NCBI RefSeq assembly: GCF_007858475.1 | Contig: NZ_VIGX01000006.1 | Location: 186,001-250,000, forward strand | Length of the DNA stretch: 64,000 bases | From: Tsukamurella conjunctivitidis | Lineage (GTDB): Bacteria > Actinomycetota > Actinomycetes > Mycobacteriales > Mycobacteriaceae | Direction of reading: 5' to 3' | Shown here: positions 7,893 to 59,979 of the stretch, piece by piece | Numbering within the stretch: the stretch's first letter is position 1 | Layout of the letters: each line of letters starts with the position of its first letter | Position numbers and translations under genes: made by a program | Notes under the pieces: model-generated | What the model was told of the DNA's origin: nothing | Database searches by the model: none | What the model saw: the letters and a program-made list of their open reading frames with translations, nothing else

Positions 7893-7934
7893 GTTCTCCT
7901 CCTTCGACGGTGGCGGTCGCTCGCCGTGGCTCGG

Positions 7935-7960
7935 CTACCCGCCCGCGTCCGCCGGCAAAC
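7935..7960 (-). promoter_or_regulatory. SigF/SigB-type promoter for the SDR gene
   Basis: On the minus strand GTTT (7960-7957), a 16-base spacer and GGGTAG (7940-7935). The GTG of the dehydrogenase is at 7892. Only 11 bases separate it from the -35 of the opposite promoter at 7972. Confidence 0.78.
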
Positions 7961-7971
7961 CCCCGCGCCGG

Positions 7972-7997
7972 GTTTGCCACGACGGGGCGCGGGGTAC
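7972..7997 (+). promoter_or_regulatory. SigF/SigB-type promoter for the ChaB-family gene
   Basis: GTTT at 7972-7975 (within GGTTTG), a 16-base spacer and GGGTAC at 7992-7997. The start codon at 8042 follows with GGAAGGAG between. It is one of two back-to-back promoter pairs in the island. Confidence 0.78.
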
Positions 7998-8041
7998 CCG
8001 GCCGTTGACAGTGCCGAAACGACGCGGAAGGAGACGGATCG

Positions 8042-8452
8042 ATGCCGAAGACCACAGAACAGGGTTCGGCCGATGAGGACGAACTCCCGGGTACCCTGCA
8101 GCGCTCGAGCGCGAAGGCCCAGCGGACGTTCGCCAAGGCCCACGACTCCGCACTGGAGGAGTACGGGGACGAGGAGCGGGCGCATCGCGTCGCCTATGCG
8201 GCCCTCAAGCACAGCTACGAGCGGGTCGGCGACCGGTGGGAGCGCAAGCCCGGCGGGAAGCGCGGCACATCCGAACGGCCGGGACAGCGCCGGGGCGGCC
8301 CGACGCACGAGGGTGTCGATGTGAACGCGACGAAGGAACACCTCCTCGACGTCGCCAGGCGCTTGGACATCCACGGACGCTCCACGATGCGGAAGGCGGA
8401 ACTCATCGATGCGATCGAAGACGCCAACGAACGAGCGAGGAGCAGCGACTGA
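8042..8452 (+). CDS. ChaB-family protein with C-terminal Rho-N/SAP-like domain
   Basis: A 136-residue protein. Residues 12-68 resemble ChaB (ELPGTLQRSSAKAQRTFAKA, then GDEERAHRVAYAALKHSYER), a small fold first linked to cation transport regulation but now usually treated as of unknown function. Residues 95-130 (NATKEHLLDVARRLDIHGRSTMRKAELIDAIE) look like a Rho N-terminal/SAP-type nucleic-acid-binding helix-loop-helix. This pairing is common in actinobacterial stress islands. ATG at 8042 has a strong GGAAGGAG site and a SigF-type promoter at 7972. A stem-loop separates it from the anti-sigma gene. Confidence 0.82.
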   Translation: MPKTTEQGSADEDELPGTLQRSSAKAQRTFAKAHDSALEEYGDEERAHRVAYAALKHSYERVGDRWERKPGGKRGTSERPGQRRGGPTHEGVDVNATKEHLLDVARRLDIHGRSTMRKAELIDAIEDANERARSSD

Positions 8453-8522
8453 TGGTCGCCGCGGCGGTCGGGGGCGGCGGTGCGGATCGCCGGCTCCGTC
8501 CCGCGTTTCGCTGTACAGGGGA

Positions 8523-8552
8523 GGGCGCCCCGTGTTAGCACGGAAGGCGCCC
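8523..8552 (+). terminator. Stem-loop between the ChaB gene and the anti-sigma/sigma operon
   Basis: GGGCGCC (8523-8529) pairs with GGCGCCC (8546-8552), with an inner CCGTG/CACGG stem around a TTAG loop. It is followed by CTTCG rather than a T-run. It could end the ChaB transcript or partly attenuate read-through into the anti-sigma gene, for which I find no good promoter. Confidence 0.55.
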
Positions 8553-8570
8553 TTCGATGAACGGAGTCTC

Positions 8571-8981
8571 ATGGCGTACACGGCACGGACCGCACCGGCC
8601 CATCCCGTCGATCTGAGCGTTCCGGCCGACCTCTCGTACCTGCCGGTGGTGCGTGCGGTACCGGAGGCGCTCGCCATCATGCTCGACCTCGACATCGACA
8701 TCGTGTCCGACCTCGGGCTCGCGATCGACCAGATCTGCACCGAGCTGATCGCCGATGCCCAGCAGGGCGCGAACGTCGAACTCCGGATCGAGCTCGCCGC
8801 GGCGGACCTCACGACGACGGTCACGGCGCGCACCCGCAGCGACCGCGCGCCGGACCGATCCGGGTTCGGCTGGCGAGTCCTGAATACGCTCACCGAGGGG
8901 CTCGAGGTCGAACGTGCACCGGCGCCGGGCGGTGGATGGTCGACGAGCGTGTCGTTCCGCTCGGGTCGGGGTGCCGTGTAG
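8571..8981 (+). CDS. RsbW/UsfX-like anti-sigma factor
   Basis: A 136-residue GHKL-type protein of the RsbW/UsfX/SpoIIAB class that would bind and hold the adjacent SigF-type sigma factor. The fold is recognisable from the strand pattern and DLGLAIDQICTELIADA (about residues 46-62), which is the N-box helix. The Asn normally seen there (as in E..TNA) is not present, and no clear G1/G2 glycine boxes are visible, so ATP binding and kinase activity may be weak or lost. The ATG at 8571 has CGGAG upstream. The stop codon overlaps the GTG of the sigma gene by one base, the classic coupled pair. Length is close to UsfX. Confidence 0.85.
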   Translation: MAYTARTAPAHPVDLSVPADLSYLPVVRAVPEALAIMLDLDIDIVSDLGLAIDQICTELIADAQQGANVELRIELAAADLTTTVTARTRSDRAPDRSGFGWRVLNTLTEGLEVERAPAPGGGWSTSVSFRSGRGAV

Positions 8982-9757
8982 TGCCGCCGCAATCTCGGGA
9001 GCCGCGGCACTCGAGCGAGGACTACTCCGACGTGGCGGAGATCCTCCGATCGGCGCGTCGTCAGGGCGGGACACGCGCCGCCGCCACCAGGGATGATGTG
9101 ATCACCCGGTGCCTGCCCCTCGCGGAGAACCTGGCGCGGAGGTTCTCCGGCCGAGGTGAGCCCCACGACGACCTGGTGCAGGTCGCCCGCGTCGGTCTGG
9201 TCAACGCGGTGGACCGCTTCGATCCGGACAAGGGCACCGATTTCTTGTCTTTCGCGGTGCCCACTATGTTGGGTGGCCTGCGGCGCCACTTCCGAGACAC
9301 CGGCTGGGCGACCCGCGTGCCGCGGCGCATGCAGGAATTGCACCTGCGCATGAACTCCGCGATCGCCGAGACGGCACAGGGGCTCGGGCGGACACCGACC
9401 TACCGCGAGCTCGCGGAGCGCTTGGACGTGAGTGTGGACGACGTCCGAGAGGCGGCACGTGCGGGGAACGGCTACCGAGCGAGGTCGATCGACCAGCCCG
9501 TCGGTGACGACGAGCGGTCCGCACCGGTGGACAGGATCGGCGAGAACGACCCGGGGTTCGAGCTCGTCGAGGAGTTCGCGTCGCTACGCCCCGCGGTCGA
9601 GCGGCTCGATGAACGCGAGCGTGCCGTTCTCGCGCTGCGGTTCTACCGGTCGATGACGCAGACCGAGATCGCGGCACAGCTGGGCATCTCGCAGATGCAC
9701 GTGTCGAGGATCCTGTCCAGGGCGCTCGGCAGCCTCCGGTCGCACGTCGCCGAGTAG
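8981..9757 (+). CDS. sigF: SigF/SigB-type RNA polymerase sigma factor (group 3)
   Basis: A 258-residue stress sigma factor, near the length of mycobacterial SigF. Region 2 is at about residues 38-105 (RCLPLAENLARRFSGRGEPHDDLVQVA, then VNAVDRFDPDKGTDFLSFAVPTMLGGLRRHFRDTGW), region 3 at about 106-185 (VPRRMQELHLRMN) and region 4 at about 200-258, ending in the helix-turn-helix TQTEIAAQLGISQMHVSRILSRALGSLR. The GTG at 8981 overlaps the anti-sigma stop (TAGTG), and an STAS antagonist follows 156 bases later. Nine matching GTTT-N15/16-GGGTA promoters surround it, so it very likely directs this island. Confidence 0.93.
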   Translation: MPPQSREPRHSSEDYSDVAEILRSARRQGGTRAAATRDDVITRCLPLAENLARRFSGRGEPHDDLVQVARVGLVNAVDRFDPDKGTDFLSFAVPTMLGGLRRHFRDTGWATRVPRRMQELHLRMNSAIAETAQGLGRTPTYRELAERLDVSVDDVREAARAGNGYRARSIDQPVGDDERSAPVDRIGENDPGFELVEEFASLRPAVERLDERERAVLALRFYRSMTQTEIAAQLGISQMHVSRILSRALGSLRSHVAE

Positions 9758-9913
9758 CGAATCACTCATGTCGAACCGCGAACATTCAGCGGTGTAGTCG
9801 TTTTCGATCTCCAACGACTCGGCTGTGCCTGTACAGCACGGTGTGCCTGTGGTACGAACGAAGGAGGTTGAGTGCCGCAGCCGGAACATCACGATCTGTT
9901 GCTGGAGGCTCCC

Positions 9914-10243
9914 ATGTCACTGTCTGTCATCGAACATCCCGACGCTCTCCGGAAGGGCGGGTCGCGGGCTCCGTCGCGGCTCTGCACCGAGGTGGTCCCG
10001 GAGGGGGACCTCGACGCCTTCACTCTGCCCGTGCTCGTCCGCGCCGTCGACGAGGCCGTGCGGACGAGCGCCAGGGTGGAGCTCGACCTGTCCGGGGTCG
10101 ACTTCATGAGCATCGCCGCCGCCGCGTACGTGTGGCAGCGAGTGGCCTCTCCCGGTGCCCCGACCGTGGAGATCAGCGCCGCGAGCGACGCTGCATCCCG
10201 CTCGCTCGTCGTCACCGGCTTCGGCGGCATCGCCGACGTTTGA
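9914..10243 (+). CDS. STAS-domain anti-sigma factor antagonist
   Basis: A 109-residue STAS protein of the RsbV/SpoIIAA class. In this class the unphosphorylated antagonist binds the anti-sigma factor and frees the sigma factor. The core reads TEVVPEGDLDAFTLPVLVRAVDEA and VELDLSGVDFMSIAAAAYV, where S66 stands at the site normally phosphorylated. ATG at 9914 has GGAGG 5 bases upstream; a GTG at 9872 with its own AAGGAGG is an equally well-supplied alternative adding 14 residues. No SigF-type promoter is seen upstream, so it may be constitutively or differently expressed and set the switch for the sigma factor just before it. Confidence 0.85.
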   Translation: MSLSVIEHPDALRKGGSRAPSRLCTEVVPEGDLDAFTLPVLVRAVDEAVRTSARVELDLSGVDFMSIAAAAYVWQRVASPGAPTVEISAASDAASRSLVVTGFGGIADV

Positions 10244-10262
10244 CGTCGCTCTTCCGGGGTAG
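10238..10262 (+). promoter_or_regulatory. SigF/SigB-type promoter for the hemerythrin-catalase genes
   Basis: GTTT at 10238-10241, a 15-base spacer and GGGTAG at 10257-10262. It overlaps the 3' end of the STAS gene and leads into the GTG at 10318. The genes from 10318 to 14109 lie closely spaced behind it. Confidence 0.75.
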
Positions 10263-10317
10263 ACCTCTGCTGCAGCACCGCCGCGAGCGGACCGACGAGA
10301 CAGAGAGGACGAGCACC

Positions 10318-10884
10318 GTGACGTTCATCAATCCGTACACCTTCATCGATGAGCTGGCCTTCCAACACCAGCGGATCCTGCAACTCTTCGATCGCGTCCT
10401 CGCCAGCGACGCGGAGGACCGTGACGAGGCCTTCCTCGAACTGCGACGGCTTCTGGCCGTGCACGAGGCGGCCGAGGAGATCATCGTGCACCCGAAGGCG
10501 CGCGCGGTGATCGCGGCCGGCGGCACCGTGGTGGACGAGCGGCTCGGCGAGGAGCGCGCCGCCAAGCGGCTGCTCGCCGAGCTCGAGGATCTCGACCTCC
10601 GGTCCGCCGAGTTCGACGCCAAGATCGAAGCCCTGCGCGCCGCGGTCGAACGACACGTCGAGCGCGAGGAGCGGGAGGAGTTCATCGCTCTGCGTAACGA
10701 GATCGACGACGACGAGGCGGCGCGGATGGCGGATGCGGTGCAGGCCATCGAGGCGATCGCGCCGACGCGCCCGCACCCCGCCATCGAGTCCGCACCGGCG
10801 AACCTCCTCGTCGGGCCGTTCGCCGCCATGCTGGACCGAGCCCGTGACGTGATCTCCGACCGGATGCGGCAGGGGGCCCACTGA
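10318..10884 (+). CDS. Hemerythrin HHE-domain protein
   Basis: A 188-residue helical protein with an HHE/hemerythrin cation-binding domain in its first 130 residues. Candidate diiron ligands are H17 (FQHQRILQLFD), H46 and E50 (VHEAAEEIIVH), H54, and H/E residues of ERHVEREEREEF. Members carry oxygen or NO, sense redox, or act in peroxide handling. The last 45 residues are a tail of unknown role. GTG at 10318 has GAGAGGA upstream, and a SigF-type promoter at 10238 precedes it. The stop overlaps the next ATG (TGATG), so it is coupled to a small membrane protein. Confidence 0.85.
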   Translation: MTFINPYTFIDELAFQHQRILQLFDRVLASDAEDRDEAFLELRRLLAVHEAAEEIIVHPKARAVIAAGGTVVDERLGEERAAKRLLAELEDLDLRSAEFDAKIEALRAAVERHVEREEREEFIALRNEIDDDEAARMADAVQAIEAIAPTRPHPAIESAPANLLVGPFAAMLDRARDVISDRMRQGAH

Positions 10885-11192
10885 TGCAGCGCATCGCACG
10901 GCAATGGGGTGGAACAGGTTTCGTCGGCGTGCTCGTGGGCATCGGCGTCCTCGCGATCGGGATCAGCGCGACGGCCATCGGCACGCCCTGGGCGTGGGCC
11001 GCTGTCGGCATCGGGATCCTCCTGATCGTCGTGGGCGGCGCGGCAATGACGGCGGTCTCGCTCAGTCGCAGGAGGAACGCATGGGACGACCGCGGACAGC
11101 GCGACCCGGTCCTCGGGGAGGAACTCACACCCGCCGAGGAACGTCAGTACTTCCGGCGATACCGCCGGCGCGGCGGGCGTGGCCGAGGGTGA
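10884..11192 (+). CDS. Small membrane protein with two hydrophobic segments
   Basis: A 102-residue protein. Residues 12-34 and 38-60 are two glycine- and isoleucine-rich membrane helices, followed by a charged, arginine-rich tail containing DPVLGEELTPAEERQYFRRYRRR. I do not recognise the family. The ATG overlaps the hemerythrin stop by one base, and catalase follows 40 bases later, so it belongs to the peroxide-stress transcript. The sequence gives no catalytic clue; a small stress-envelope protein is the most that can be inferred. Confidence 0.7.
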   Translation: MQRIARQWGGTGFVGVLVGIGVLAIGISATAIGTPWAWAAVGIGILLIVVGGAAMTAVSLSRRRNAWDDRGQRDPVLGEELTPAEERQYFRRYRRRGGRGRG

Positions 11193-11232
11193 CGGCGGAC
11201 CAACCGACGACGAATCAGCCTAGGAGGCGAAC

Positions 11233-13323
11233 ATGGCAGACGAGCAGATCGAGGCGGTCACGGCGGTGGGGCAGGGCGGGGAGCCTCACCAAGTCGCGGC
11301 CGAGGCGCTGACGACCTCCCAGGGAGCGCCGGTGCCGGACAATCAGAACTCCCTGAGAGCGGGGGAGCGCGGGCCGACGCTGCTGGAGGATTTCGTCCTC
11401 CGCGACAAGATCTTCCGATTCGACCACGAACGCATCCCGGAACGCGTGGTCCACGCCCGCGGATACGGCGCGCACGGCGTCTTCGAGTGCACCCGGTCGC
11501 TCACCGGTGTGACGGTGGCAGATCTCTTCGGCGCAGTGGGAAGGCGCACCGAGGTCTTCGTCCGCTTCTCGACCGTCGCCGGCCGTGCAGGATCGTTCGA
11601 CCTGGCACGCGACGTCCGCGGTTTCGCGGTCAAGTTCTACACCCGCGAGGGGAACTGGGACCTCGTGGGCAACAACATCCCCGTCTTCTTCATCCAGGAC
11701 GCGATGAAGTTCCCGGACCTGGTGCATGCGGTCAAGGAGGATCCCGACCGCGGCTTCCCCCAGGCCCAGTCCGCGCACGACACCTATTGGGACTTCGTCT
11801 CGTGCCTTCCCGAATCGACCCATATGACCCTGTGGCAGATGTCGGACCGAGCGATTCCGCGCTCCTTCCGATTCATGGAGGGGTTCGGTGTGCACACCTT
11901 CCGGTTCCTCGCGGAGGACGGTGCGTCCACGTACGTGAAGTTCCACTGGAAGCCGGTGCTCGGTTGCCAATCCGTCGTGTGGGACGAGGCGGTCAAGATC
12001 AACGGCGCCGATCCCGACTTCCATCGCCGAGACCTGTGGAACGCGATCTCCTCGGGCGAGTATCCGCAGTGGGACCTGGCCGTGCAGCTGTTCGACCAAG
12101 CGACGGCGGACGCTCTCCCCTTCGACGTACTCGATCCCACCAAGATCGTTCCTGAGGAGACGGTGCCGCTGCAGGTGGTCGGTCGCCTCACGCTGGACCG
12201 GACCGTGGACAACGACTTCGCCGAGACGGAGCAGGTCGCGTTCTGCACGCAGAACATCGTCCCGGGCATCGGCTTCACCGACGATCCGCTGTTGCAGGGA
12301 CGGAACTTCTCGTACCTCGACACCCAACTGTCCCGACTGGGCGGGCCCAACTTCACGCAACTGCCGGTGAACAGTGCCCGATGCCCGATGGCCTTCTTCC
12401 ACCAGGACGGACACATGCAACACGACGTACCGTCCGGCCAGATCAATTACGAGCCGAACTCGAGCGATCACGGCGGTCCGCGCGAACGGACCGGCGCGAA
12501 GGCGCTCACCACGTTCGCCGAGCCGGTGACCGGAACGAAGACCCGATTGCGTCCGGACTCCTTCGCCGATCATTACAGCCAGGCCAAGATGTTCTGGGAC
12601 AGCCAGACCGCCGTGGAGCAGGACCACATCGTCGCCGCTTACGTCTTCGAACTGAGCAAGGTGGGGGAACCTGCGATCAGGACGAGGATGGTCTCGAATC
12701 TGATGAACGTGGACGACGGTCTCGCCTCTCGTGTCGCCGCGGGGCTCGGCATGCCGTTGCCGGCGCCCTCCCCGGCCGCGGTACCGGTGCGGACCGACAT
12801 CCCTCGATCACCAGCCGTCAGCATGATGCGCAATGCGCCAAGGACATTCGCCGGGCGAACGGTGGGCGCGCTGGTGACCGACGGGGTCGAGCGCTCGCTC
12901 GTCGACGCACTGCGGAGCCACGCCGCCGACGCCGGAGCCTCGGTGGTGATCGTCGCGCCGAGGGTGGGGGGCGTGGTCGCCGACGACGGCGGGAGCCTCG
13001 GCGCCGATGCTCAGTTGGCGGGCGCCCCGTCGGTCCTGTTCGACGCGGCGGCGATCCTGACCTCAGCCGCCGGAGCCGAGGAACTCGCGGCGGACCCGGC
13101 GGCGCGGGACTTCATCACCGACGCCTTCCATCACAGCAAGTTCGTCGCGATCGGGGAGCACTGCGGGCCGCTGCTGCGCCGCACCGGGCTCGTCGACAGT
13201 GTCGACGACGGGTGCTTCCCGCTCGACTCCGAGCGGGTCGCTGCGGATTTCATCGAGGCCTGTGCGGACCTGCGGTACTGGCCGCGCACCGCCATCGGCG
13301 GCCACAACCCACCGAAGGAGTGA
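11233..13323 (+). CDS. katE: Large-subunit (clade 2) haem catalase, HPII/KatE type
   Basis: A 696-residue monofunctional catalase (2 H2O2 to 2 H2O + O2), cytoplasmic. Catalytic H74 (RVVHARGYG), distal N147 ([11 protein letters not shown]) and proximal haem ligand Y361 ([15 protein letters not shown]) keep the spacing of E. coli HPII. Residues about 550-690 form the extra C-terminal flavodoxin-like domain found only in large-subunit catalases ([15 protein letters not shown] to the end). ATG has CTAGGAGG upstream. The gene lies behind the hemerythrin and small membrane genes and probably shares their SigF-type promoter; two small genes follow directly. Confidence 0.96.
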
Positions 13324-49540: not shown

Positions 49541-50503
49541 TCAGATCGCCACCATCCGGGTCGCGGCCGACGCGCTGCGCCGGCCCCGGATCGCGATGAG
49601 CTCGCGGGCGTGCGCATCGAGCGCCACGTCGCCGGGCAGGCGCGGCATCCACGGTCGCACCGCCGTGGCGTCGCCGTCGGCGTCGAGCGCCGCCAGCACG
49701 TGCAGGGCGTGCGCCGCGGGCTGCGGATCGCGCTCGTGCGGCCAGCACGTGGCGAGGTGCACCGAGACGTGCATCGTCTGCCTGCCGGTGTGCAGGAGCC
49801 GGGCGGAGACCTCGATGACCTGGCCGATCTGCACCGGGCGGTAGAACCGCACTCCGCCCACGTAGACGGTGACGGCCTCGCCGCCGCTCCAGCCCGCAGC
49901 GCAGAGATAGGCGGCGTCGTCCATCCACCCCATGACGCGGCCGCCGTGCGCCTTACCGCCCCAGTTGATGTCGGTGGGGGCCGCGAGGAAGCGGGTGGTG
50001 CGCCGCTCCGCCTCGGTCGGCCGGGTGTAGTCCGCCCCGCCCATCGCCGCCGCGATCCGTTGCCGCACGTCGGCGCGGGCCTCGGCCTCCTCGGCGGCGC
50101 GCACGTCCTCCGCGAGGACGGGCTGCCACTGCCGTACGGGCGTCGGCTTCCCGGCCTCGTCGACGGCGACGAACACCAGGAGACACGTGCTGGCGACGGT
50201 GAAGGTGCCCACCCGCGGATCGGCGGAGGCGACCTCGCACCGGATGTGCATGCTGCTGCGGCCGGTGAGGACGAGCGTCGCGCGGACCTCGACGACGTCG
50301 CCGGACGCGATGTCGCGGCCGAAGCCGATGTTGCCGACGTAGGCGGTCACGGAGTAGCCGCCCGACCAGGCGGCCGCGCAGGCGTACGCCGCCTTGTCGA
50401 TCCACTCCAGGATGCGGCCGCCGCGCACGCCGCCGCCGAGCGTCGCGACGTCGGTGGGGGCGGCGAGGAACCGCAGCGTGATCCGGCGATCGGTGATGGG
50501 CAT
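49541..50503 (-). CDS. Acyl-CoA thioesterase with tandem hotdog domains
   Basis: A 320-residue protein made of two hotdog domains (residues about 5-140 and 165-300), each with the same marks: RFLAAPTDVATLGGGVRGGRILEWIDKAAY (part) and RFLAAPTDINWGGKAHGGRVMGWMDDAAY (part), then VTAYVGNIGF/VTVYVGGVRFYRP. The Asp in each WxD..AY is the expected catalytic acid. It would hydrolyse acyl-CoA; chain length unknown. ATG at 50503 has AAGGAG 9 bases upstream. A 150-base gap separates it from the hydroxyquinol operon, so it may be independent. Confidence 0.87.
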   Translation of the reverse strand: MPITDRRITLRFLAAPTDVATLGGGVRGGRILEWIDKAAYACAAAWSGGYSVTAYVGNIGFGRDIASGDVVEVRATLVLTGRSSMHIRCEVASADPRVGTFTVASTCLLVFVAVDEAGKPTPVRQWQPVLAEDVRAAEEAEARADVRQRIAAAMGGADYTRPTEAERRTTRFLAAPTDINWGGKAHGGRVMGWMDDAAYLCAAGWSGGEAVTVYVGGVRFYRPVQIGQVIEVSARLLHTGRQTMHVSVHLATCWPHERDPQPAAHALHVLAALDADGDATAVRPWMPRLPGDVALDAHARELIAIRGRRSASAATRMVAI

Positions 50504-50653: not shown

Positions 50654-51553
50654 TCAGGCGGTCGGAGCGGTCCGCGCCAGGACGACGTCGAACCGGGCGC
50701 GCGACCACGGTCGGCCTCCGAGGTCGTGCGCGGCAGGCACCGGTGCGCCCTCGGGCTGCGGCTCGAAGCGCTTGATCAGGGAGTCCTTGACGCCGAAGAC
50801 GCTGTCGCCGACCACCAGCTGTTCGTCGCCCTCGACGAAGATGTGGGTCACGAGGGTGCGGTACCCGGGGGCGGAGACCATGAAGTGCAGGTGCGCGGCG
50901 CGCATGGGAGAGCGTCCGGTCGCCGCGAGCATCCGGCCGACCGGACCGTCCGCGGGGATGGGGTAGGGCGTGGGCGTCAGCCCCCAGAAGCCGTAGGAGC
51001 CGTCCTCGCGCGCCGCGAGCCGGGCCCGCGCGGCGGTGCGCTCGTCGTCGTACTGCACGTCGTAGAAGCCGTCTTCGTCCGCCTCCCAGACCTCGATGCG
51101 GGCGCCGGGGACCGGCGCACCGTCGGTCCCGGTGACGGTTCCCTCGACCCAGCAGGGCTCGCCCGCCGCGCCGCCGGCGATGTCGCCGCCGAACGGGATC
51201 GACGGGGCGTCGTCGACGAAGAAGGGGCCGAAGACCGTGGCCTCGGTGGCGTCGCCGTCGAGCTCGTTGTTGACGGTGACCGTCTGCATGGACGCGCCGA
51301 GCACGTCGGAGAGCAGGATGAACTCGTGCCGGCGGTCGTCGGTGATGTGGCCGCACGCGGTGAGGAAGTCGATCGCCGCGGACCATTCCTCCTCGGTGAG
51401 GCGGACCTCGCGGATGAACGAGTGCAGGTGCCGCACCAGCGATTCCAGCACCGTCTTCAGGCGCGGGTCCTCGGTGCGGGCGAAGGATTGCAGGACCCTC
51501 TCGACCAGGGCCTCTTCCGCGGCGGCCTGGTCGGTCGTCGTTGTCTCGTGCAC
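50654..51553 (-). CDS. Hydroxyquinol 1,2-dioxygenase
   Basis: A 299-residue Fe(III) intradiol dioxygenase that cleaves 1,2,4-trihydroxybenzene to maleylacetate. Ligands Y164 ([10 protein letters not shown]), Y197 (TPYPIPADG), H221 and H223 (RAAHLHFMV) fall at the same numbers as I recall for Nocardioides simplex hydroxyquinol dioxygenase. The N-terminal helical dimerisation domain is present ([19 protein letters not shown]). GTG at 51553 has GGAG upstream and lies 8 bases after the maleylacetate reductase stop. It is last in a four-gene operon. Catechol dioxygenase is the less likely alternative given the reductase next to it. Confidence 0.93.
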
Positions 51554-51561
51554 AGGGGCTC

Positions 51562-52617
51562 CTAGGCGGGCTCGGGCGTGGCACCGGACCACGCGTCGGA
51601 CAGGATGCGGTCGAGGTCGGCCGCGGTCACCGGGCGGGGGTTGCCGGCCGGGACCAGCGGCAGGATCGCCTCGACGGCGGGGGCGATGTCGGCCTCGGTC
51701 ATGCCGAGGTCGCGCAGGGACCGGGGTGCGCGCACCTCGTCGTACAGCGAGTTCAGGCCCGCGACGGCGGTGGCGGCGTCGAAGGCCGTCGCCAGCCGGG
51801 CCTCCGCCTCCGGTGCGGCGGGCGCGTTGAAGGCGAGGACGTGGGGGAGCACCGCGGTGTGCGTCTGCGCGTGCGGAAGGTCGAAGGCGCCGCCGAGGAC
51901 GTGGCAGATCTTGTGGTGCAGGCCCGATCCGGCGGAGGAGAAGGCGGTCGCGGCGAGGTAGGCGGCGTAGAGCACCTGCTCGCGCCCGGCGAGATCCGAC
52001 GGGTCCGCGGCGACGGCCGGCAGTCCCACGCGCAGCGCCCGGGCGGATTCCGCCGCGAGCACTCGGTCGATCGGATCGGCCCGCGGGCCCCACATCGCGT
52101 CGACACTGTGCGCGAGCGCGTTCAGCGCCGAGGCGATGCCGATGTCCGGGGGCAGGCCCAGGGTGAGGTCGGCGTCGTAGAGGATCGCGCGGGGCGCGAC
52201 CCGCGGGTCGACGCCCGTGGTCTTGACGCCGTTCTCGGTCAGCCCCCACATCGACGTCGCCTCGGATCCGGAGTACGTGGTCGGGACGGCGACGATCGGG
52301 ATCGAGGTGGTGAGGGCGATCGCCTTCGCGAGACCGATCGCCGAGCCGCCACCGAAGCACAGCAGCAGATCGGCGCGCGCCTCCGCCGCGGCCGCGCGGC
52401 CGCGCTCGGCGACCTCGACGGGCACGTGCATCGCCACGTCGTGGTGGCGGAGCGCGACGGGGAGGTCCGCGGTGATCCGCGCGGCCCGGTCCGCCTCGCG
52501 CGGCGTGCAGATCAGCATGATCCGCTCGGCGCCGGCGGTGACATCGGCGAGCGCGGTGCGGGCCGCCCCCGACCCGAATCGGACCGTCTGGGTGAGGCTG
52601 TCGTGGGTGAAGTTCAT
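51562..52617 (-). CDS. Maleylacetate reductase
   Basis: A 351-residue iron-alcohol-dehydrogenase-fold enzyme that reduces maleylacetate to 3-oxoadipate with NAD(P)[16 protein letters not shown] is the dinucleotide loop, [15 protein letters not shown] is typical of the subfamily, and [12 protein letters not shown] and [27 protein letters not shown] (part) carry the His residues that replace metal ligands. It overlaps the hydrolase gene by 4 bases (ATGA) and precedes the dioxygenase, in the usual order for hydroxyquinol pathways. Confidence 0.94.
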
Positions 52618-53669
52618 GCGCGGACCCCTCCGAGTCGTTCGGCGAACCAGTCCGCGGCCACCGCGTTCCGTTCGTCGGCGTGGTTGTAGATGGTGTGTTC
52701 TCCGTCGTCCCAGATCCGCAGTGTCGCATCGTCGGCGGCGTCGAGGAAGGGCTGTTGATCGGCCAGGTCCACCAGCGGGTCGGCGCCGCCATGCAGGACG
52801 AGCAGCGGGCACGGGATGGTTTCCGTCGCCGGGTCGAAGCGCAGGCGCGCGAAGTTCGCGGTGACGGCGGCGTCGTCGGTCGATCCCAGCATGGCCTTGG
52901 CCTGTTCGGCGAAGGTCCGGAAGTCGAGCAGGCGCGGCGCGGCGAAGGCGCCGTTGACGCAGCACGCGGCGACGCCGGGACGCCGGGCAGCGGTGAGCGC
53001 GGCGAACAGGCCCCCGACGCTGTTGCCCCACACGCCGACCGGCCCGTCCGGCGTCGCGAGATCGACGAAGGCGCCGAACGCGGCGGCGACGTCCACGTCG
53101 AGGTGCACGCCGTGGACCAGCCGCGCGTCGCCCTGCCCGGGGCCCTCCGCGAGGATCACGGCGAGCCCGCGGGCGAGCAGCGCATCGGCGTAGCGCAGGT
53201 AGGTGGCGCCCCAGCCGCTCTGGCCGCCGAAGACTACGACGGTGCCGCGCGGCGAGGTCGGCCGCAGGTGCCAGCCGGTCAGGGCGCCCGCGCCGAAGGC
53301 CGGCTCCACGCGGCGCATCGGGACCGGCGAGTGCGCGGCGGCGCCCGCCACGGCCCCGTCGAACCGCGCGTAGAGCGCGCGCTTGCGGTCGGTGTCGAAG
53401 TTGAAGGCCATCTGCGCGAACAGGAAGCAGGCCGCGGCCGCGCGGTGGCTCTCGTACGCGGTGGCCGTCCGGCCCGCGTCGGCGGCGGCCTCGGCCTCGG
53501 CCGTCCGGGCCGCGCCGAGCTCCTCGGCGACCTCGTCCCACGCCCGGCCGGCGTCGGTGCCCGCCCGCAGCGCGAGGACGTCGTCGTAGCGCATCCCGGC
53601 GTCGAGCAGGCGCGTCACGCCCATCGCCCGCCAGTGGGCGTCGTTGGCTGCGGTCACGTCGGCGCTCAT
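52614..53669 (-). CDS. FrsA/DHPON-hydrolase-like alpha/beta hydrolase
   Basis: A 351-residue alpha/beta hydrolase with a helical N-terminal half (about 1-120) and a core with nucleophile S217 ([13 protein letters not shown]), acid D297 ([12 protein letters not shown]) and base H325 ([11 protein letters not shown]). This layout matches 2,6-dihydroxypseudooxynicotine hydrolase of nicotine-degrading Arthrobacter, which cuts a C-C bond between a dihydroxylated ring and a ketone carbon. Here, between a ring hydroxylase and hydroxyquinol enzymes, it could release resorcinol from an acyl-resorcinol. Overlaps both neighbours by 4 bases. An ester hydrolase role is the alternative. Confidence 0.85.
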
Positions 53670-55270
53670 CGGGCGACCGCCACGGCCGGTGCGGCGCTCA
53701 GCTTCACCCGGAGGTTGTCCACCAGCCGCGGCAGGTCGGCGAGGCCGCCGGCGCCGTACAGGTGGAAGTCGGGACGGGCGAGGAAGGCCTCGGTGCCGGT
53801 GGCCGCGAAATACGCGGCGTAGGTGCCGTCCTCGTCGACGATCGAGTGCGGATGCCCCGGCTCCAGGGTGACGACGGTGCCGCCGAGCTCGGCCAGGAAC
53901 GCCAGGCGATCCGGCCCCAGGATCTCCGTCGCGTCGCCGGTGGAGACCAGGGTGAAGCCCCACGGGTGCAGGTCGTCGAACCGTCCCGAGCGCTCGCCCC
54001 GGCGCACCACGCCCTGCGGCGCCAGCGTGCCGGCGAAGCCCCTTGGGACCCCCGACTCGTCGGTGTCGATCACGCCGGCGGCGATCGTCGGAAACGGGGG
54101 CAGGGGCGGCACCTCGCCGCGCTGGAAGGCGGCGTCGCGCGCCGCGGCGGCCACCGGATCCTTGAGGTTCGCCACGCGCCCCAGCTCCACGGCGCAGGCC
54201 TGGATGACCTCGACGTGCGGCCGGCGCTCGGCCTCGTAGGTGTCCAGCAGCGCGTCGCCGGCCCTGCCGGACAGCACCAGGTCGAGCTTCCAGGCGAGCG
54301 TGATCCCGTCGCGCATACCCGAACACGCGCCCTGCCCCATGTACGGCGGCATCGTGTGCGCGGCGTCGCCGGCCAGGAACACCCGGCCCGCGCGCCAGGT
54401 GTCGGCGATGCACGCGGAGAACGTGTAGACGATGTGGCGCAGGATCGTCAGGTCCTCGGGACCCAGGTCGTGCTGCGACCGGAGCCAGCGCCAGGCGAAC
54501 TCCTCGGTGGCCATCTCGTCGGCGTCGTCCTCGGGGCGGACGGCGACCTCGAACCGCTGGCGGCTCCGCCCGATAGGCATGAACATGTGGGGCTGGTGCG
54601 GATCGCAGAACTGCCGGGCGGTGTCGAATCGATCACCCAGGGGGCGAGTGCATTCCGTGTCGATGTTGAGCCAGCGGTCGTCGACGTGCAGATCGGTGCG
54701 GCCGATCCCGAGGATGTGGCGGACCATGCTGCCCGCGCCGTCGGCGCCGACGACGTACTTCGCGGTCAGCGTGCGCTCGGGGGCATCGGCCCATTGCGCG
54801 TCCCGGTCGCGCGACCAAGGGCGCACCGTCAGCTCGACGTGGTCGTCCGACTGCTCCATGCCGACCAGGATGGTGCCCTGATGCACGTCGAGGTCGGGGC
54901 GCGTGCGGTTGCGATCGTCGATCGAGCACTCGATGTGCGGCTGGTACATCGAGTAGTGGGCCGCGAAGCCGCTGGACTCGCCCGACCAGTCGACGGCGAT
55001 CAGCAGGTCCTCGGCGTGGTTGCGCCATTCGTAGACGGCGGCGGGAGCGGCATCGCGCAGCGCCTCGTCGACGTCGCCCGCGGCCTGGATGATGCGTGCG
55101 GTCTCGCCGTCGATGTGGGTGAGCCGCGGCATGCCGTAGAGGCTCGGCCAGCGTTCGATCACCACCACGCGGTGCCCGGCGCGCGCCAGCATGGACGAGA
55201 GGACGAGGCCCGTCGGGCCGTAGCCGACGACGGCGACGTCGTAGTCAGTGGTTGTCGATTCGGTGTTCAC
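53666..55270 (-). CDS. FAD-dependent aromatic hydroxylase (MhpA/resorcinol hydroxylase type)
   Basis: A 534-residue class A flavoprotein monooxygenase. DVAVVGYGPTGLVLSSMLARAG (part) is the FAD GxGxxG loop, VVGADGAGSMVRHIL is the DG motif for NADPH/FAD, and GRVFLAGDAAHTMPPYMGQG is the GD motif closing the FAD site. The C-terminal ~130 residues are the thioredoxin-like domain of the PheA/MhpA group. With hydroxyquinol enzymes downstream the best guess is ortho-hydroxylation of resorcinol or a resorcinol derivative. GTG at 55270 has GAAGGAG upstream. First gene of the operon; divergent from an AraC regulator. Confidence 0.9.
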   Translation of the reverse strand: MNTESTTTDYDVAVVGYGPTGLVLSSMLARAGHRVVVIERWPSLYGMPRLTHIDGETARIIQAAGDVDEALRDAAPAAVYEWRNHAEDLLIAVDWSGESSGFAAHYSMYQPHIECSIDDRNRTRPDLDVHQGTILVGMEQSDDHVELTVRPWSRDRDAQWADAPERTLTAKYVVGADGAGSMVRHILGIGRTDLHVDDRWLNIDTECTRPLGDRFDTARQFCDPHQPHMFMPIGRSRQRFEVAVRPEDDADEMATEEFAWRWLRSQHDLGPEDLTILRHIVYTFSACIADTWRAGRVFLAGDAAHTMPPYMGQGACSGMRDGITLAWKLDLVLSGRAGDALLDTYEAERRPHVEVIQACAVELGRVANLKDPVAAAARDAAFQRGEVPPLPPFPTIAAGVIDTDESGVPRGFAGTLAPQGVVRRGERSGRFDDLHPWGFTLVSTGDATEILGPDRLAFLAELGGTVVTLEPGHPHSIVDEDGTYAAYFAATGTEAFLARPDFHLYGAGGLADLPRLVDNLRVKLSAAPAVAVAR

Positions 55271-55397
55271 GGCTCTCCTTCATCGCGGGACTGGGGCGAT
55301 GCATGCACGCTACGAAGCTGTGATCGGTGCCACTATCCGCGCGGCGACAGCGCTATCCGATTCCCGCCGGGAAGTGGTGACATGGATCGCAGTTCCG

Positions 55398-55417
55398 CCG
55401 CAGCTGCGGTGTAACCT
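55398..55417. promoter_or_regulatory. Palindrome and -10 box between AraC gene and hydroxyquinol operon
   Basis: CCGCAGCTGCGG (55398-55409) is a perfect 12-base palindrome directly before TAACCT (55412-55417), a good -10 for the AraC gene. It is placed where the regulator could repress itself and act on the divergent operon, whose start codon is 128 bases away. Confidence 0.5.
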
Positions 55418-55467
55418 GCAGGTGGGAGCGCTTTCGAGGCGGTCCGGCGAGTGTGGAGGCGATGCCG

Positions 55468-56493
55468 ATGTGGGGTGGGATAGAGCCCGGTGGCGGGGCG
55501 ACGCCTGCGCCGCTCGGCCGGTTCGACAGCCTCCGCACCGCCGACGTCGACGCCTTCCGCAGCGCCGCCGGCGGTCTGCTCAGCACGCACTCGATCGCGG
55601 TGCCCCGCGGCGCCACCACCCTGTTCGACGGTGCGGTCCGCTCCGCGACGGTCGCCGACCTCGGCGTGGTCTACCTGGAGCAAGGCGCGCCGATCGACGT
55701 CGACATCCTCGACCGGATCGACTACTACGACCTGATGATCGCCGTGGCCGGGTCCAATCGCCTCGAACTCGTCGGAGCGGGCGGAGGCGCGGTGATCGAG
55801 GGCGGAGTCGCCGCCGTCCTCTCGCCCGCGATGCGGGCCCGGATGCGGATGGACGGCGCCTACCGCCAGTTGCATCTGCGGCTCGAACGCGCCGCCGTAC
55901 ACGAGCGCATGGAGGCCCTCGTCGGCCGGCCCGTCGGCGGCCCCGTGGTCTTCGACGTGGGGATGGACCTCGCCGCGCCGGGGCTCCGCAGCTGGTCGGG
56001 CGCGCTGCGCTCGTTGCTGCGCGATCTCGACGACGAGGCCGGGCTCGCGGCCGATCCCGCGATGGCGCGGCACTGGCGGGACCTGCTCATCACCGGTCTG
56101 CTCGTTTCCCACCGGCACAACCACTCGGCACTGGTGCACGAGCGCGACGAGGACCGGGTGCATCCGCGGACCTTCCAGCGCGCGCTCGACCACATCGAGG
56201 CGCGGCTGCGCGGCCCGCTGTCGGTGCCAGACGTGGCCGCCCACGTCGGCATCAGCGTGCGTTCCCTACAACGCGCCTTCCAGGACCGGCTCGAGACCTC
56301 GCCCAGCGCGTACATCCTGGGGGAGCGGCTCGACCGGGTTCGCGCGGAACTACTGGCGCCGGATTCCGCGCGCACCGTGACGGATACGGCCTTCGACTGG
56401 GGGTTCACCCACCCCTCGCGGTTCTCCTCCCTGTACCGGCGCCGGTTCGGTGAGACGCCCTCGCAGAGCCGGGCCCGCGCCGCCGGTCGGTGA
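55468..56493 (+). CDS. AraC-family transcriptional regulator
   Basis: A 341-residue regulator. Residues 1-220 are a cupin-like sensor of the AraC_binding_2 (PF14525) type (FRSAAGGLLSTHSIAVPRGA). Residues about 235-335 hold the two helix-turn-helices: LSVPDVAAHVGISVRSLQRAFQDRLETSPSAYI (part) and VTDTAFDWGFTHPSRFSSLYRRRFGETPSQ (part). The start ATG at 55468 has GGAGG 8 bases upstream; a GTG at 55453 is an alternative. Divergent from the hydroxyquinol operon and probably its activator, with a ring-derived compound as inducer. Confidence 0.88.
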   Translation: MWGGIEPGGGATPAPLGRFDSLRTADVDAFRSAAGGLLSTHSIAVPRGATTLFDGAVRSATVADLGVVYLEQGAPIDVDILDRIDYYDLMIAVAGSNRLELVGAGGGAVIEGGVAAVLSPAMRARMRMDGAYRQLHLRLERAAVHERMEALVGRPVGGPVVFDVGMDLAAPGLRSWSGALRSLLRDLDDEAGLAADPAMARHWRDLLITGLLVSHRHNHSALVHERDEDRVHPRTFQRALDHIEARLRGPLSVPDVAAHVGISVRSLQRAFQDRLETSPSAYILGERLDRVRAELLAPDSARTVTDTAFDWGFTHPSRFSSLYRRRFGETPSQSRARAAGR

Positions 56494-56498
56494 CCGGC
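56482..56498. terminator. Stem-loop between convergent AraC and LysR genes
   Basis: GCCGGTC (56482-56488) pairs with GACCGGC (56492-56498) around GGT, covering the AraC stop codon. The two genes converge 15 bases apart, so it may serve both. Confidence 0.5.
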
Positions 56499-56508
56499 CG
56501 GGCCGGGC

Positions 56509-57399
56509 TCAGGTCGCGGCGGTGAGGTCGGCGATGACCTCCGTGACGCGCTCGAGGTGGCGATCGGTCCGGTCCGTCACGTGCGCGACAGCCAGCTCGA
56601 CGCCGCCGCCGGCTCCGCCGAGCGGCCGGTAGGTCAGGCCGTCGAGCCGCAGCGCCGTGATCGGTTCGGGCGCCACCGCGATGCCCAGCCCGGCGGCGAC
56701 GAGCGTCGCGAGCGTCGATGTCTCGCCGACCTCGTGGCGGATCATCGGCGCCACGCCGCCCTCGCGGAGCAGCGCCACGACCCGGTCGTACATCGCCGAA
56801 CGCCGGCCCGCGCTGTGGACGATGAACGGCGCCCCGGCGAGGTCCGCGACCCGCAGCCGGTCCCGGCGAGCCAGGGGATGATCGGTCGGCAGGGCGACGA
56901 CCCACGGCTCGCGGCGCAGCACCCGTACCGTCAGCGACGGGTCGGCGACCGGCGGGCGCAGCAGCGCGATGTCGATGGCGCCCCTGCGCAGCGCCTCGAC
57001 CTGGTCCGGCACGAGCATCTCGCCACGGAAGGCGAAGTCGATGCCGGGCAACTCGTCCTCGAGCCGGCGGGCCAGCGGCGGCAACAGGCTGTACGTCGCC
57101 GTGCCGACGCAGCCGATGGTCAGGTGCCCCGTCGCGCCCGCCGCGACACGTCGCGCGTGCTCGGCGGCGTCGTCGACCGCGGCGAGAATGGTGCGCGCCC
57201 GCTCCAGGTAGGCCCGCCCGGCGTCGGTCAGCTCGACCCGGCGGGTGGTGCGGTGCAGCAGTTGGACCCCCAGATCGTCTTCGAGTTGGCGGATCTGTTG
57301 GGACAGCGGCGGCTGCGCCATGTGCAGCCGCTGCGCCGCGCGGCCGAAGTGCCGTTCCTCGGCGACCGCGACGAAGTACCGCAGCTGGCGAAGATTCAT
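56509..57399 (-). CDS. LysR-family transcriptional regulator (BenM/CatR/PcaQ-like)
   Basis: A 296-residue LTTR. Residues 1-60 are the winged helix-turn-helix (MNLRQLRYFVAVAEERHFGRAAQRLHMAQPPLSQQIRQLE in part), close to the BenM/CatM/ClcR signature for aromatic-degradation regulators. Residues 90-296 form the periplasmic-binding-like effector domain (GHLTIGCVGTATYSLLPPLARR, part). It is divergent from the 3-oxoadipate operon with an AT-rich inverted repeat between, and probably activates it on a pathway intermediate. Confidence 0.92.
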   Translation of the reverse strand: MNLRQLRYFVAVAEERHFGRAAQRLHMAQPPLSQQIRQLEDDLGVQLLHRTTRRVELTDAGRAYLERARTILAAVDDAAEHARRVAAGATGHLTIGCVGTATYSLLPPLARRLEDELPGIDFAFRGEMLVPDQVEALRRGAIDIALLRPPVADPSLTVRVLRREPWVVALPTDHPLARRDRLRVADLAGAPFIVHSAGRRSAMYDRVVALLREGGVAPMIRHEVGETSTLATLVAAGLGIAVAPEPITALRLDGLTYRPLGGAGGGVELAVAHVTDRTDRHLERVTEVIADLTAAT

Positions 57400-57427
57400 A
57401 TTGCTAGAATATCAATTGGGCATTATT

Positions 57428-57445
57428 CAGGTACTTCAGTATCTG
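57428..57445. promoter_or_regulatory. Probable LysR-regulator binding site
   Basis: CAGGTACTTCAGTATCTG: 7-base arms (one mismatch) around TTCA, in a 71-base AT-rich gap between the LysR gene and the thiolase. TACCGT at 57458-57463, 7 bases before the thiolase ATG, is a likely -10. Confidence 0.6.
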
Positions 57446-57470
57446 GATTGTTCGCCCTACCGTCGTTCGT

Positions 57471-58655
57471 ATGGATGCATACGTCTACTCCGCCGCACGC
57501 ACGCCGTTCGGGCGCTTCTCGGGTGCGCTCGCCGGCGTCCGGCCCGACGACCTGGCCGCCACCGCGATCCGCGCCGTCCTCGACCGCACTCCCGCGCTCG
57601 GTGCGGGCACGGCCGTCGACGAGGTCGTGTGGGGGAACGCCAACGGGGCCGGCGAGGACAACCGCAACGTCGGCCGGATGGCGGGACTTCTCGCGGGGAT
57701 TCCGGTCAGCGTCCCCGCGACCACGGTCAACCGCCTGTGCGGCTCCGGACTCGACGCGGCGATGATGGGCAGCCGCGCGATCGAGACCGGCGATGCCGAG
57801 GTGGTGCTCAGCGGCGGCGTCGAGTCCATGACCCGAGCGCCGTGGGTCCTGCCGAAGAACACCAAGCCCTTTCCCGCCGGCGACGTCACTGCGGTCTCGA
57901 CGACCCTCGGCTGGCGGCTGGTCAACCCCGCCATGCCCGTCGAGTGGACCGTCAGCCTCGGTGAGGCCAACGAACAACTCGGCGAGAAGTTCTCCGTCTC
58001 CCGCGCGCGGCAGGACGAGTTCGCGGCGCTCTCGCACCGTCGGGCCCACACGGCGTGGGAGGAGGGCTTTTACGACGACCTCGTGGTCCCCGTCGACGGG
58101 CTCGAGCGCGACGAGAACGTCCGGCCCGGATCGACCGCCGAGAAGCTGAGCGAGCTGAGGCCCGCGTTCCGGCCCGACGGGACGATCACCGCCGGCAACG
58201 CCAGCCCGCTCAGCGACGGCGCCGCCGCGGTGCTGCTGGGATCGGACCGCGCCGCGGCGACGATCGGGCGCGACCCCCTCGCGCGGATCGCGGGCCGCGG
58301 CGCAGCGGCCCTGGAGCCGCAGCTGTTCGGCTACGCGCCGGTCGATGCGGCGAACCGGGCTCTCGCCCGCGCCGGGATCAGCTGGGGCGACGTCGGGGTC
58401 GTCGAACTCAACGAGGCCTTCGCGGTGCAGTCCCTGGTGTGCATCGACGCCTGGGGGATCGACTCCGCGATCGTCAACCCGTACGGCGGCGCCATCGCGC
58501 TCGGACACCCGCTCGGAGCGTCCGGCGGGCGCCTGCTCGGCACCCTCGCGAAGGCCCTGCGGCGGCGTCGCGAGCGGTACGGCGTCGCGGCGATCTGCAT
58601 CGGCGTGGGGCAGGGCCTCGCCGTCGTCCTGGAGAACACGGAGGTCGGGGCATGA
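57471..58655 (+). CDS. pcaF: 3-oxoadipyl-CoA thiolase
   Basis: A 394-residue thiolase that splits 3-oxoadipyl-CoA to acetyl-CoA and succinyl-CoA. Catalytic C90 (TTVNRLCGSGLDAAMMG), the His of NPYGGAIALGHPLGASGGR, and the second Cys in CIGVGQGLAVVLE are present. The family assignment to PcaF rather than a fatty-acid thiolase rests on fused context: the two CoA-transferase subunits follow with 4-base overlaps, and a hydroxyquinol operon lies nearby. ATG at 57471 appears leaderless. Confidence 0.92.
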   Translation: MDAYVYSAARTPFGRFSGALAGVRPDDLAATAIRAVLDRTPALGAGTAVDEVVWGNANGAGEDNRNVGRMAGLLAGIPVSVPATTVNRLCGSGLDAAMMGSRAIETGDAEVVLSGGVESMTRAPWVLPKNTKPFPAGDVTAVSTTLGWRLVNPAMPVEWTVSLGEANEQLGEKFSVSRARQDEFAALSHRRAHTAWEEGFYDDLVVPVDGLERDENVRPGSTAEKLSELRPAFRPDGTITAGNASPLSDGAAAVLLGSDRAAATIGRDPLARIAGRGAAALEPQLFGYAPVDAANRALARAGISWGDVGVVELNEAFAVQSLVCIDAWGIDSAIVNPYGGAIALGHPLGASGGRLLGTLAKALRRRRERYGVAAICIGVGQGLAVVLENTEVGA

Positions 58656-59347
58656 GCAGGGCAGTGGTGCACGAGGGCGTCGACGACGCGGTCGCCGGCA
58701 TCGAGGACGGATCGACGGTCCTGATCGGCGGCTTCGGGTTGGCGGGCATGCCCTTCGACCTCATCGACGCCCTCATCCGGCAGGGCGCCACCGACCTCAC
58801 TGTGGTGTCCAACAACGCGGGCAACGGCGACGTCGGTGTCGCCGCCCTGCTCGCGGCGGGCCGCGTCCGCAAGGTGGTGTGCTCCTTCCCCCGGCAGAGC
58901 GACTCGTACGTCTTCGACGGGCTCTACCGTGCGGGGAAGATCGACCTCGAGGTCGTTCCCCAGGGCAACCTCGCCGAACGCATGCGCGCCGCGGGCGCGG
59001 GCATCGGCGGCTTCTACTGCCCGACGGCCGTCGGTACGCTCCTCGCCGAGGGCAAGGAGTCGCGCGAGATCGACGGCCGGACGTACCTGCTCGAGTACCC
59101 GATCCGCGGCGACTACGCGCTGATCGCGGCGCATCGCTCCGATCCCTGGGGCAATCTCGTCTACCGCAAGACCGCCCGCAACTTCGGGCCGGTCATGGCG
59201 ACGGCCGCGGCGACCACGATCGTCCAGGTCGACGAGGTCGTGCCGCTCGGCGCGATGGACCCGGAGGCGGTCGTGACGCCGTCGATCTTCGTCGACCGGA
59301 TCGTCGCCGTCGACGCCCGGCACTACACCGTGGAGGGAGCACGATGA
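58652..59347 (+). CDS. pcaI: 3-oxoadipate (3-oxoacid) CoA-transferase subunit A
   Basis: A 231-residue family I CoA-transferase alpha subunit. GSTVLIGGFGLAGMPFDLIDA holds the glycine-rich CoA loop, and SNNAGNGDVGVAALLAAGRVRKVVCS, PQGNLAERMRAAGAGIGGFYCPTAVGT and FGPVMATAAATTIVQVDEVV (all given in part) are usual. It moves CoA from succinyl-CoA to 3-oxoadipate with subunit B. ATGA overlaps join it to the thiolase before and subunit B after. Confidence 0.93.
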   Translation: MSRAVVHEGVDDAVAGIEDGSTVLIGGFGLAGMPFDLIDALIRQGATDLTVVSNNAGNGDVGVAALLAAGRVRKVVCSFPRQSDSYVFDGLYRAGKIDLEVVPQGNLAERMRAAGAGIGGFYCPTAVGTLLAEGKESREIDGRTYLLEYPIRGDYALIAAHRSDPWGNLVYRKTARNFGPVMATAAATTIVQVDEVVPLGAMDPEAVVTPSIFVDRIVAVDARHYTVEGAR

Positions 59348-59979
59348 GCGCGCAACGCCTGACGATGGAGGAACTTGCGGCCCGCATCGCCCGCGACATC
59401 CCGAAGGGCGCCTACGTCAACCTCGGGATCGGGCAGCCGACGAAGGTCGCGGACCACCTTCCACCGGAGCGGGAGGTCGTGCTCCACACCGAGAACGGGA
59501 TGCTGGGTATGGGGCCCACCGCCACCGGGGACCTCGTCGACCCGGACCTCACGAACGCCGGCAAGGTCCCCGTCACGGAGCTCCCGGGGGCCGCGTACTT
59601 CCACCACGCCGACTCCTTCGCGATGATGCGCGGCGGCCACATCGACGTCTGCGTGCTCGGCGCCTACCAGGTCTCCGAGCACGGGGACCTCGCCAACTGG
59701 CACACCGGGCGCGAGGGCGACATCCCCGCCGTCGGCGGCGCGATGGACCTCGCCATCGGTGCGAAGCAGGTGTACGTGATGATGTCGCTGCTGAACAAGT
59801 CCGGTGAGCCCAAGCTCGTGCCGGCCTGCACCTATCCGCTCACCGGGCTCGGCTGCGTGAACCGGGTCTACACCGACGTGGCGGTCTTCGAGACCGGGCC
59901 CGACGGGGTCCGGGTGCTCGAGACCTTCGGCATCGGGACCGACGAGCTCCGGGATCTCCTGCCCGTCGCCCTGCGGTGA
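59344..59979 (+). CDS. pcaJ: 3-oxoadipate (3-oxoacid) CoA-transferase subunit B
   Basis: A 211-residue beta subunit. The catalytic Glu is E50 (VVLHTENGMLGMGP), the residue that carries CoA in family I transferases. GAYVNLGIGQPTKVADHL, FHHADSFAMMRGGHIDVCVLGA and CTYPLTGLGCVNRVYTD are family landmarks. Acetoacetate CoA-transferases are close relatives, so 3-oxoadipate is chosen by context. Last gene of the operon, followed by a terminator. Confidence 0.93.
   Translation: MSAQRLTMEELAARIARDIPKGAYVNLGIGQPTKVADHLPPEREVVLHTENGMLGMGPTATGDLVDPDLTNAGKVPVTELPGAAYFHHADSFAMMRGGHIDVCVLGAYQVSEHGDLANWHTGREGDIPAVGGAMDLAIGAKQVYVMMSLLNKSGEPKLVPACTYPLTGLGCVNRVYTDVAVFETGPDGVRVLETFGIGTDELRDLLPVALR

Follow-up and report, generated by a model that had tools for sequence, protein, structure and literature searches.

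We analyzed a putative aromatic-degradation cassette in a 64,000-nucleotide window of Tsukamurella conjunctivitidis DNA (NCBI RefSeq assembly GCF_007858475.1, contig NZ_VIGX01000006.1, positions 186,001 to 250,000 of the forward strand), whose genome comprises 5.07 Mb in 343 contigs. A preliminary description had proposed that two operons encode a full hydroxyquinol route together with a hydrolase of carbon–carbon (C-C) bonds. All nine of its reading frames are present in, or very close to, their proposed positions, and the homology of the gene products bears out that the full hydroxyquinol route is encoded in the window. The features are listed below in window coordinates.

53666-55270, minus strand: flavin adenine dinucleotide (FAD)-dependent phenol hydroxylase of the MhpA-type subfamily, cassette gene 1 (NF004829, Pfam FAD_binding_3)
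52614-53669, minus strand: alpha/beta hydrolase like dihydroxypseudooxynicotine hydrolase (DHPONH), the proposed C-C hydrolase (triad S217-D297-H325)
51562-52617, minus strand: maleylacetate reductase (MAR; matches to 3iv7, 3w5s and 3hl0)
50654-51553, minus strand: hydroxyquinol 1,2-dioxygenase (HQD) with a GTG start (match to 1tmx, iron ligands)
49541-50503, minus strand: double-hotdog acyl-CoA thioesterase, a possible cassette member (Pfam 4HBT in two stretches)
55453-56493, plus strand: AraC-type regulator, divergent from the FAD gene (AraC_binding_2 and HTH_18)
55271-55452, no strand: stretch between the AraC and FAD genes, by its position a likely control region
56509-57399, minus strand: LysR-type regulator, divergent from the thiolase gene (HTH_1 and LysR_substrate)
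57471-58655, plus strand: 3-oxoadipyl-CoA thiolase-like gene of pcaF type (best NCBIfam models, under their cut-offs)
58652-59347, plus strand: 3-oxoacid CoA-transferase subunit A, pcaI type (TIGR02429, 354.3 over 128.5 bits)
59344-59979, plus strand: 3-oxoacid CoA-transferase subunit B, pcaJ type (TIGR02428, 261.5 over 243.55 bits)

The minus-strand genes run in the order FAD hydroxylase, hydrolase, MAR, HQD and then thioesterase, with 4-base overlaps at the FAD/hydrolase and hydrolase/MAR junctions and 8 bases between MAR and HQD. By Pfam and NCBIfam, each operon has its own regulator, the AraC-type and LysR-type genes both being divergent, and AraC genes of similar type adjoin the FAD gene in many actinobacterial loci. 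A repeat search of the control regions returned several imperfect repeats, including some within 55271-55452, none of them compelling. No gamma-resorcylate decarboxylase was found by Pfam and NCBIfam among the genes identified between 49541 and 59979. The known gamma-resorcylate and resorcinol clusters (tsd, gra and L131, on Rhizobium leguminosarum pRL9b4) share MAR, HQD and hydroxyquinol as central intermediate with the window; they employ a decarboxylase and a two-component flavin monooxygenase, whereas the window has the hydrolase and a single-component FAD hydroxylase. The decarboxylase that had been expected at the matching place of such a cluster is indeed seen in L131.

The catalytic triad of the hydrolase (S217, D297 and H325) had been numbered rightly, is invariant in all 34 aligned homologues and aligns with that of 2jbw, the DHPONH of Arthrobacter nicotinovorans, which is 25% identical to the window hydrolase and has different gene partners. 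Its likeness to DHPONH was also recognized correctly: DHPONH is the top match by sequence, profile and fold, and the window hydrolase possesses both the alpha/beta hydrolase core and the N-terminal helical domain. The next fold matches are AntI and Ayg1/Wdyg1, biosynthetic polyketide-shortening hydrolases with 16–18% identity to the window hydrolase, and also FrsA, SMU_737 and AbyA5. The hydrolases of three Tsukamurella records are 86–93% identical to that of the window. We infer that the window hydrolase cuts the C-C bond between a ring and a ketone; an aryl ketone substrate is suggested because DHPONH strips the acyl group from a dihydroxylated, electron-rich ring. The triad and fold do not fix which bond is cut, and feruloyl and cinnamoyl esterases have the same core fold, which leaves a small chance that the hydrolase serves as an auxiliary esterase or attacks some unrelated substituent of the ring (a lactone, amide or ester); the operon would then be for resorcinol or hydroquinone degradation, with esters taken up broadly. 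Against this stand the full-length match to DHPONH, helical domain included, and the strictness with which the hydrolase pairs with a single flavin-hydroxylase clade, described below.

Scored against the MhpA-type subfamily NF004829, the FAD enzyme reaches 526.7 bits, over a cut-off of 390; it falls below the thresholds of the four other MhpA models (NF004827, NF004828, NF004830 and NF004831). Its profile matches the phenol 2-monooxygenase 8r2u (3.4e-37) and, almost as well, the flavin Baeyer-Villiger monooxygenase 23lo (1.4e-34). The latter match speaks for an alternative in which the flavoenzyme performs a Baeyer-Villiger oxygen insertion at the ring-acyl bond and the hydrolase, acting as an esterase, then frees hydroxyquinol from the aryl ester so formed, a sequence of reactions that would equally bind the two enzymes as a pair; we consider it improbable.

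The iron ligands attributed to HQD (Y164, Y197, H221 and H223) are correct when numbered from the GTG start and are kept in 37 of 37 aligned HQDs (the window and 36 homologue loci). This HQD matches the solved hydroxyquinol 1,2-dioxygenase 1tmx over its full length (E-value 4e-142), a closeness from which a preference for plain hydroxyquinol is predicted. MAR matches 3iv7 (2e-121) and the solved maleylacetate reductases 3w5s (1e-69) and 3hl0 (8.5e-67). No NCBIfam model naming HQD or MAR was reached above its cut-off, and the window genome contains two further intradiol dioxygenase matches.

From the sequence, we give an even chance to a mechanism whereby the cassette is an inducible operon that serves the breakdown of an acylated dihydroxybenzene (a 2,4-dihydroxyphenyl ketone, for instance), with the FAD enzyme and the hydrolase yielding hydroxyquinol before ring cleavage. 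The FAD enzyme would add one hydroxyl to the acylated dihydroxybenzene and the DHPONH-like hydrolase would take off the acyl group as a carboxylic acid, the two jointly giving hydroxyquinol (1,2,4-trihydroxybenzene). We infer the identity of the substrate and the order of these first two steps: hydroxylation would preferably come first, followed by hydrolysis of a trihydroxyphenyl ketone that gives hydroxyquinol directly, and the reverse order, in which resorcinol is freed and then hydroxylated, is only slightly less likely. The generic HQD would then open the hydroxyquinol ring to maleylacetate, MAR would convert maleylacetate to 3-oxoadipate and the pcaIJF-like operon would turn 3-oxoadipate into succinyl-CoA and acetyl-CoA. 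Most likely, as judged from its genes, the cassette removes the side chain of a hydroxylated aromatic ketone and uses the ring for energy.

A hydrolase search of 84,980 genomes returned 46 loci in Actinomycetota and Pseudomonadota. The FAD-hydrolase pairing exceeds chance, because it recurs in 43 of these loci; HQD lies near in 32. When four plasmid loci and three loci from further genomes were added, giving a set of 53, the FAD gene adjoined the hydrolase in 50, while HQD was present in 36 and MAR in 32. The FAD gene is always on the hydrolase strand, with a median of 77.5 bases between the aligned parts and a maximum of 902 (L082, a Herbiconiux plasmid, 9570-13056, where a gene annotated as acyl-CoA thioesterase II lies between the two). 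The three loci lacking a full FAD gene are L009, where it is split over two frames, L037, whose contig begins 184 bases before the hydrolase, and L041, where a truncated remnant is left. Among plasmid records with the hydrolase, all eight have an FAD homologue beside it, and a hydrolase match at E 1e-15 occurs in five of 28 further Rhodococcus genomes, two of them at 67–69%. A two-enzyme core of FAD hydroxylase and hydrolase recurs in many unrelated bacteria.

The downstream genes accompany this core less regularly. In L036, L038 and L040, aldehyde dehydrogenase and FAA-hydrolase-type genes lie near the pair in place of HQD and MAR (neighbour calls by Pfam; the FAA-type reading frames of L038 and L040 by blastp cluster only). 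The genome of L040 (G095) carries the pair and no HQD homologue at E 1e-30; at that threshold eight of nine genomes searched have one, some of the matches being weak or partial. We set aside the co-occurrence of HQD and MAR as proof of step order because both genes often sit elsewhere in the genome. Conversely, none of 23 generic HQD/MAR loci has the FAD gene or the hydrolase, a weak control in that their flanks reach only ~1.5 to 4 kb; one of them, L118, shares a single gene with L096, and the L096 genome does have the pair. Pfam on 50 mechanically called flanking reading frames of related loci identified transporters, porins, kdp genes, aldehyde dehydrogenases and FAA hydrolases, with 12 frames unmatched, and nothing among these neighbours indicated one particular acyl group.

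Individual loci show further arrangements. L009 (Rhodococcus koreensis, 6374-9968) has a decayed look, with FAD in two frames and MAR and HQD partial. L041 (Burkholderia, 7600-8010) has kept HQD, MAR and the hydrolase, its FAD gene being reduced to the truncated remnant, and its genome holds no other FAD homologue at E 1e-60. On the Rhodococcus plasmid L080 (10320-18531), a distant FAD-hydrolase pair (35% and 39%) lies beside amidohydrolase, CoA transferase and citryl-CoA lyase-type genes and perhaps feeds a different downstream route.

Forcing the cassette HQDs into a single clade (37 versus 19 rows, 56 in all) lowered the log-likelihood by 688.6 and was rejected (AU p 6e-6), with at least six changes on the tree; L118 and L124 (the latter annotated as a catechol 1,2-dioxygenase) were left out, and a run including both gave eight changes. 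The same constraint was rejected for the cassette MARs (33 versus 18 rows, 51 in all; log-likelihood 602.2 lower, p 3e-58). For 47 core cassette FADs, the single clade was not rejected and in fact scored above the unconstrained tree (p 0.638), this core set leaving out four distant FADs placed elsewhere (L080, L082, L094 and L096). Cassette HQDs are intermingled with HQDs belonging to different pathways, that of the gamma-resorcylate cluster L131 among them, and within Actinomycetota one FAD-hydrolase type is accompanied by two HQD/MAR lineages and by both gene orders (MAR-HQD and HQD-MAR).

Distance correlations point the same way, with a contrast between pairs that is clear inside Actinomycetota and weak across all loci. 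In 16 actinobacterial sets, the coefficients are 0.81 for FAD with hydrolase, 0.93 for HQD with MAR and 0.49–0.64 for the four cross pairs; over 31 loci and the window, they are 0.89, 0.82 and 0.75–0.81, respectively. The Sinomonas locus L011 displays the exchange of HQD and MAR directly: it forms an FAD clade with L012, L018, L020, L047 and L048 (support 94). The hydrolase data do not reject this grouping (p 0.375), and those for HQD (2e-78) and MAR (0.0017) do. The six loci were chosen after the FAD tree was seen, so these p-values are descriptive.

Hydroxylase and hydrolase are inherited as one unit, while HQD and MAR are exchanged. An HQD and a MAR that had to work on an acylated ring would be expected to share the descent of the FAD-hydrolase pair, which they do not; most simply, the pair would deliver plain hydroxyquinol. 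The placement of the hydrolase upstream of ring cleavage, as first proposed, is accordingly backed by the HQD and MAR trees, the FAD clade test, the distance correlations and the six-locus test. An opposite order has the FAD enzyme make a 2,4,5-trihydroxyphenyl ketone, HQD and MAR act with the acyl group retained, and the hydrolase split the beta-diketone so formed, a 4-acyl-3-oxoadipate, into a carboxylic acid and 3-oxoadipate. The hydrolase, MAR and HQD do share one operon in the window, as this order would have it. We nevertheless hold it to be unlikely, though a serious contender: HQD and MAR exchange independently of the FAD enzyme and hydrolase, the pair occurs without adjacent HQD and MAR and once without HQD in the genome, and the window HQD closely resembles a dioxygenase that acts on plain hydroxyquinol.

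Several points weigh against hydroxyquinol formation before ring cleavage. The hydrolase's fold family includes enzymes without aryl-ketone hydrolysis, and the physical adjacency of MAR and HQD accounts for part of the correlations. The exchange of HQD and MAR does not prove the step order, because promiscuous enzymes could be swapped while acting on acylated substrates. Two known systems bear on this mechanism as well, the benzophenone-3 pathway and an isoflavone (ifc) cluster; they also weaken the newness of the acyl-resorcinol pathway first suggested, the completeness of its route being upheld. The benzophenone-3 cluster of Rhodococcus S2-17 (R. oxybenzonivorans) is said to contain a flavin oxidoreductase, HQD, MAR and an alpha/beta hydrolase acting on the acyl-resorcinol BP-1, plus a P450 complex. 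The study (Baek et al. 2022) reportedly places that hydrolase after ring cleavage, with BP-1 converted to a trihydroxybenzophenone, followed by ring cleavage, reduction and hydrolysis of 4-benzoyl-3-oxoadipate. This pathway gives the strongest backing for an acyl-resorcinol as the cassette's substrate and, at the same time, the chief challenge to the order preferred here. The ifc cluster of Variovorax sp. V35 shares with the window an FAD hydroxylase paired with a DHPONH-like hydrolase (25% identical to DHPONH); unlike the window, it opens the ring in extradiol fashion, and HQD and MAR are not among the genes described in the available part of the report (PMC11069340). According to the same part, knockout of this hydrolase left daidzein degradation unaffected (PMC11069340).

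Taken more broadly, the data tentatively suggest, at somewhat less than an even chance, a widespread and previously unnamed module in which an FAD hydroxylase and a DHPONH-like hydrolase turn dihydroxyaryl ketones into hydroxyquinol by deacylation ahead of ring cleavage; the module would have passed between Actinomycetota and Pseudomonadota and been joined repeatedly to whichever HQD and MAR the host possessed. If true, this module would correct the step order proposed for acyl-resorcinols and would be, to our knowledge, the first counterpart, in the aerobic breakdown of benzenoids, to the C-C hydrolase step of nicotine degradation. It would also predict the means by which many bacteria of soil and plants get rid of acylated resorcinols, a group that includes plant ketones and UV-filter pollutants, and would provide a gene-pair signature for finding degraders. 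Whether the acyl group is removed before or after ring opening becomes an in vitro question about two enzymes. Openly licensed PMC full text, a coverage with subscription journals mostly outside it, yielded no description of this cassette among the matches listed.

Two Rhodococcus plasmid stretches, L092 (2097-8072) and L127 (4001-9041), hold MAR, HQD, a P450, a ferredoxin and a reductase together; neither stretch contains the FAD gene or the hydrolase. Their architecture invites comparison with the benzophenone-3 cluster. The P450 of L092, used as query at E 1e-6, found L127 and had no match in the window or 54 hydrolase loci, a search that a differing P450 could escape. The reductase query gave one weak match over the window and hydrolase loci (29.5%, L041).

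The second operon has a wider likely role. Both CoA-transferase subunits score above the cut-offs of the pcaI/scoA and pcaJ/scoB families, as their first assignment implied. The naming of the thiolase as 3-oxoadipyl-CoA thiolase holds in part: the models of that name score best but lie below their cut-offs (437.6 of 605 and 430.8 of 597), and only the general acetyl-CoA C-acyltransferase model of NCBIfam is passed. The use of the pcaIJF-like operon probably extends to other 3-oxoadipate routes, because the window genome has no second copy of CoA-transferase B at E 1e-15 and the nine thiolase paralogues at E 1e-30 are at best 41% identical. Four of 16 Tsukamurella genomes searched (the window's own, G001, G002 and G010) have the hydrolase, the FAD gene and HQD with no less than 82% identity, the HQD of G010 being interrupted by a TAG stop. 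The CoA-transferase was searched in 11 of the 16: these same four have it at 88–100%, three others at 69–76% and four have none at E 1e-20. Therefore, the pca-like operon seems to travel with the cassette within the genus.

The thioesterase gene downstream of HQD was absent from the preliminary description. It was not found in L006 or the remaining loci searched, and it lies beside the cassette in L004 and L005 (Tsukamurella, 95–96%), L007 (Gordonia rhizosphera, 81%), L010 and L014 (Antrihabitans, 50–51%), and L095, which is of the same genome as L004. In L007 it sits directly after the hydrolase. This enzyme may act on the acyl portion set free from the ring, in the form of its CoA ester.

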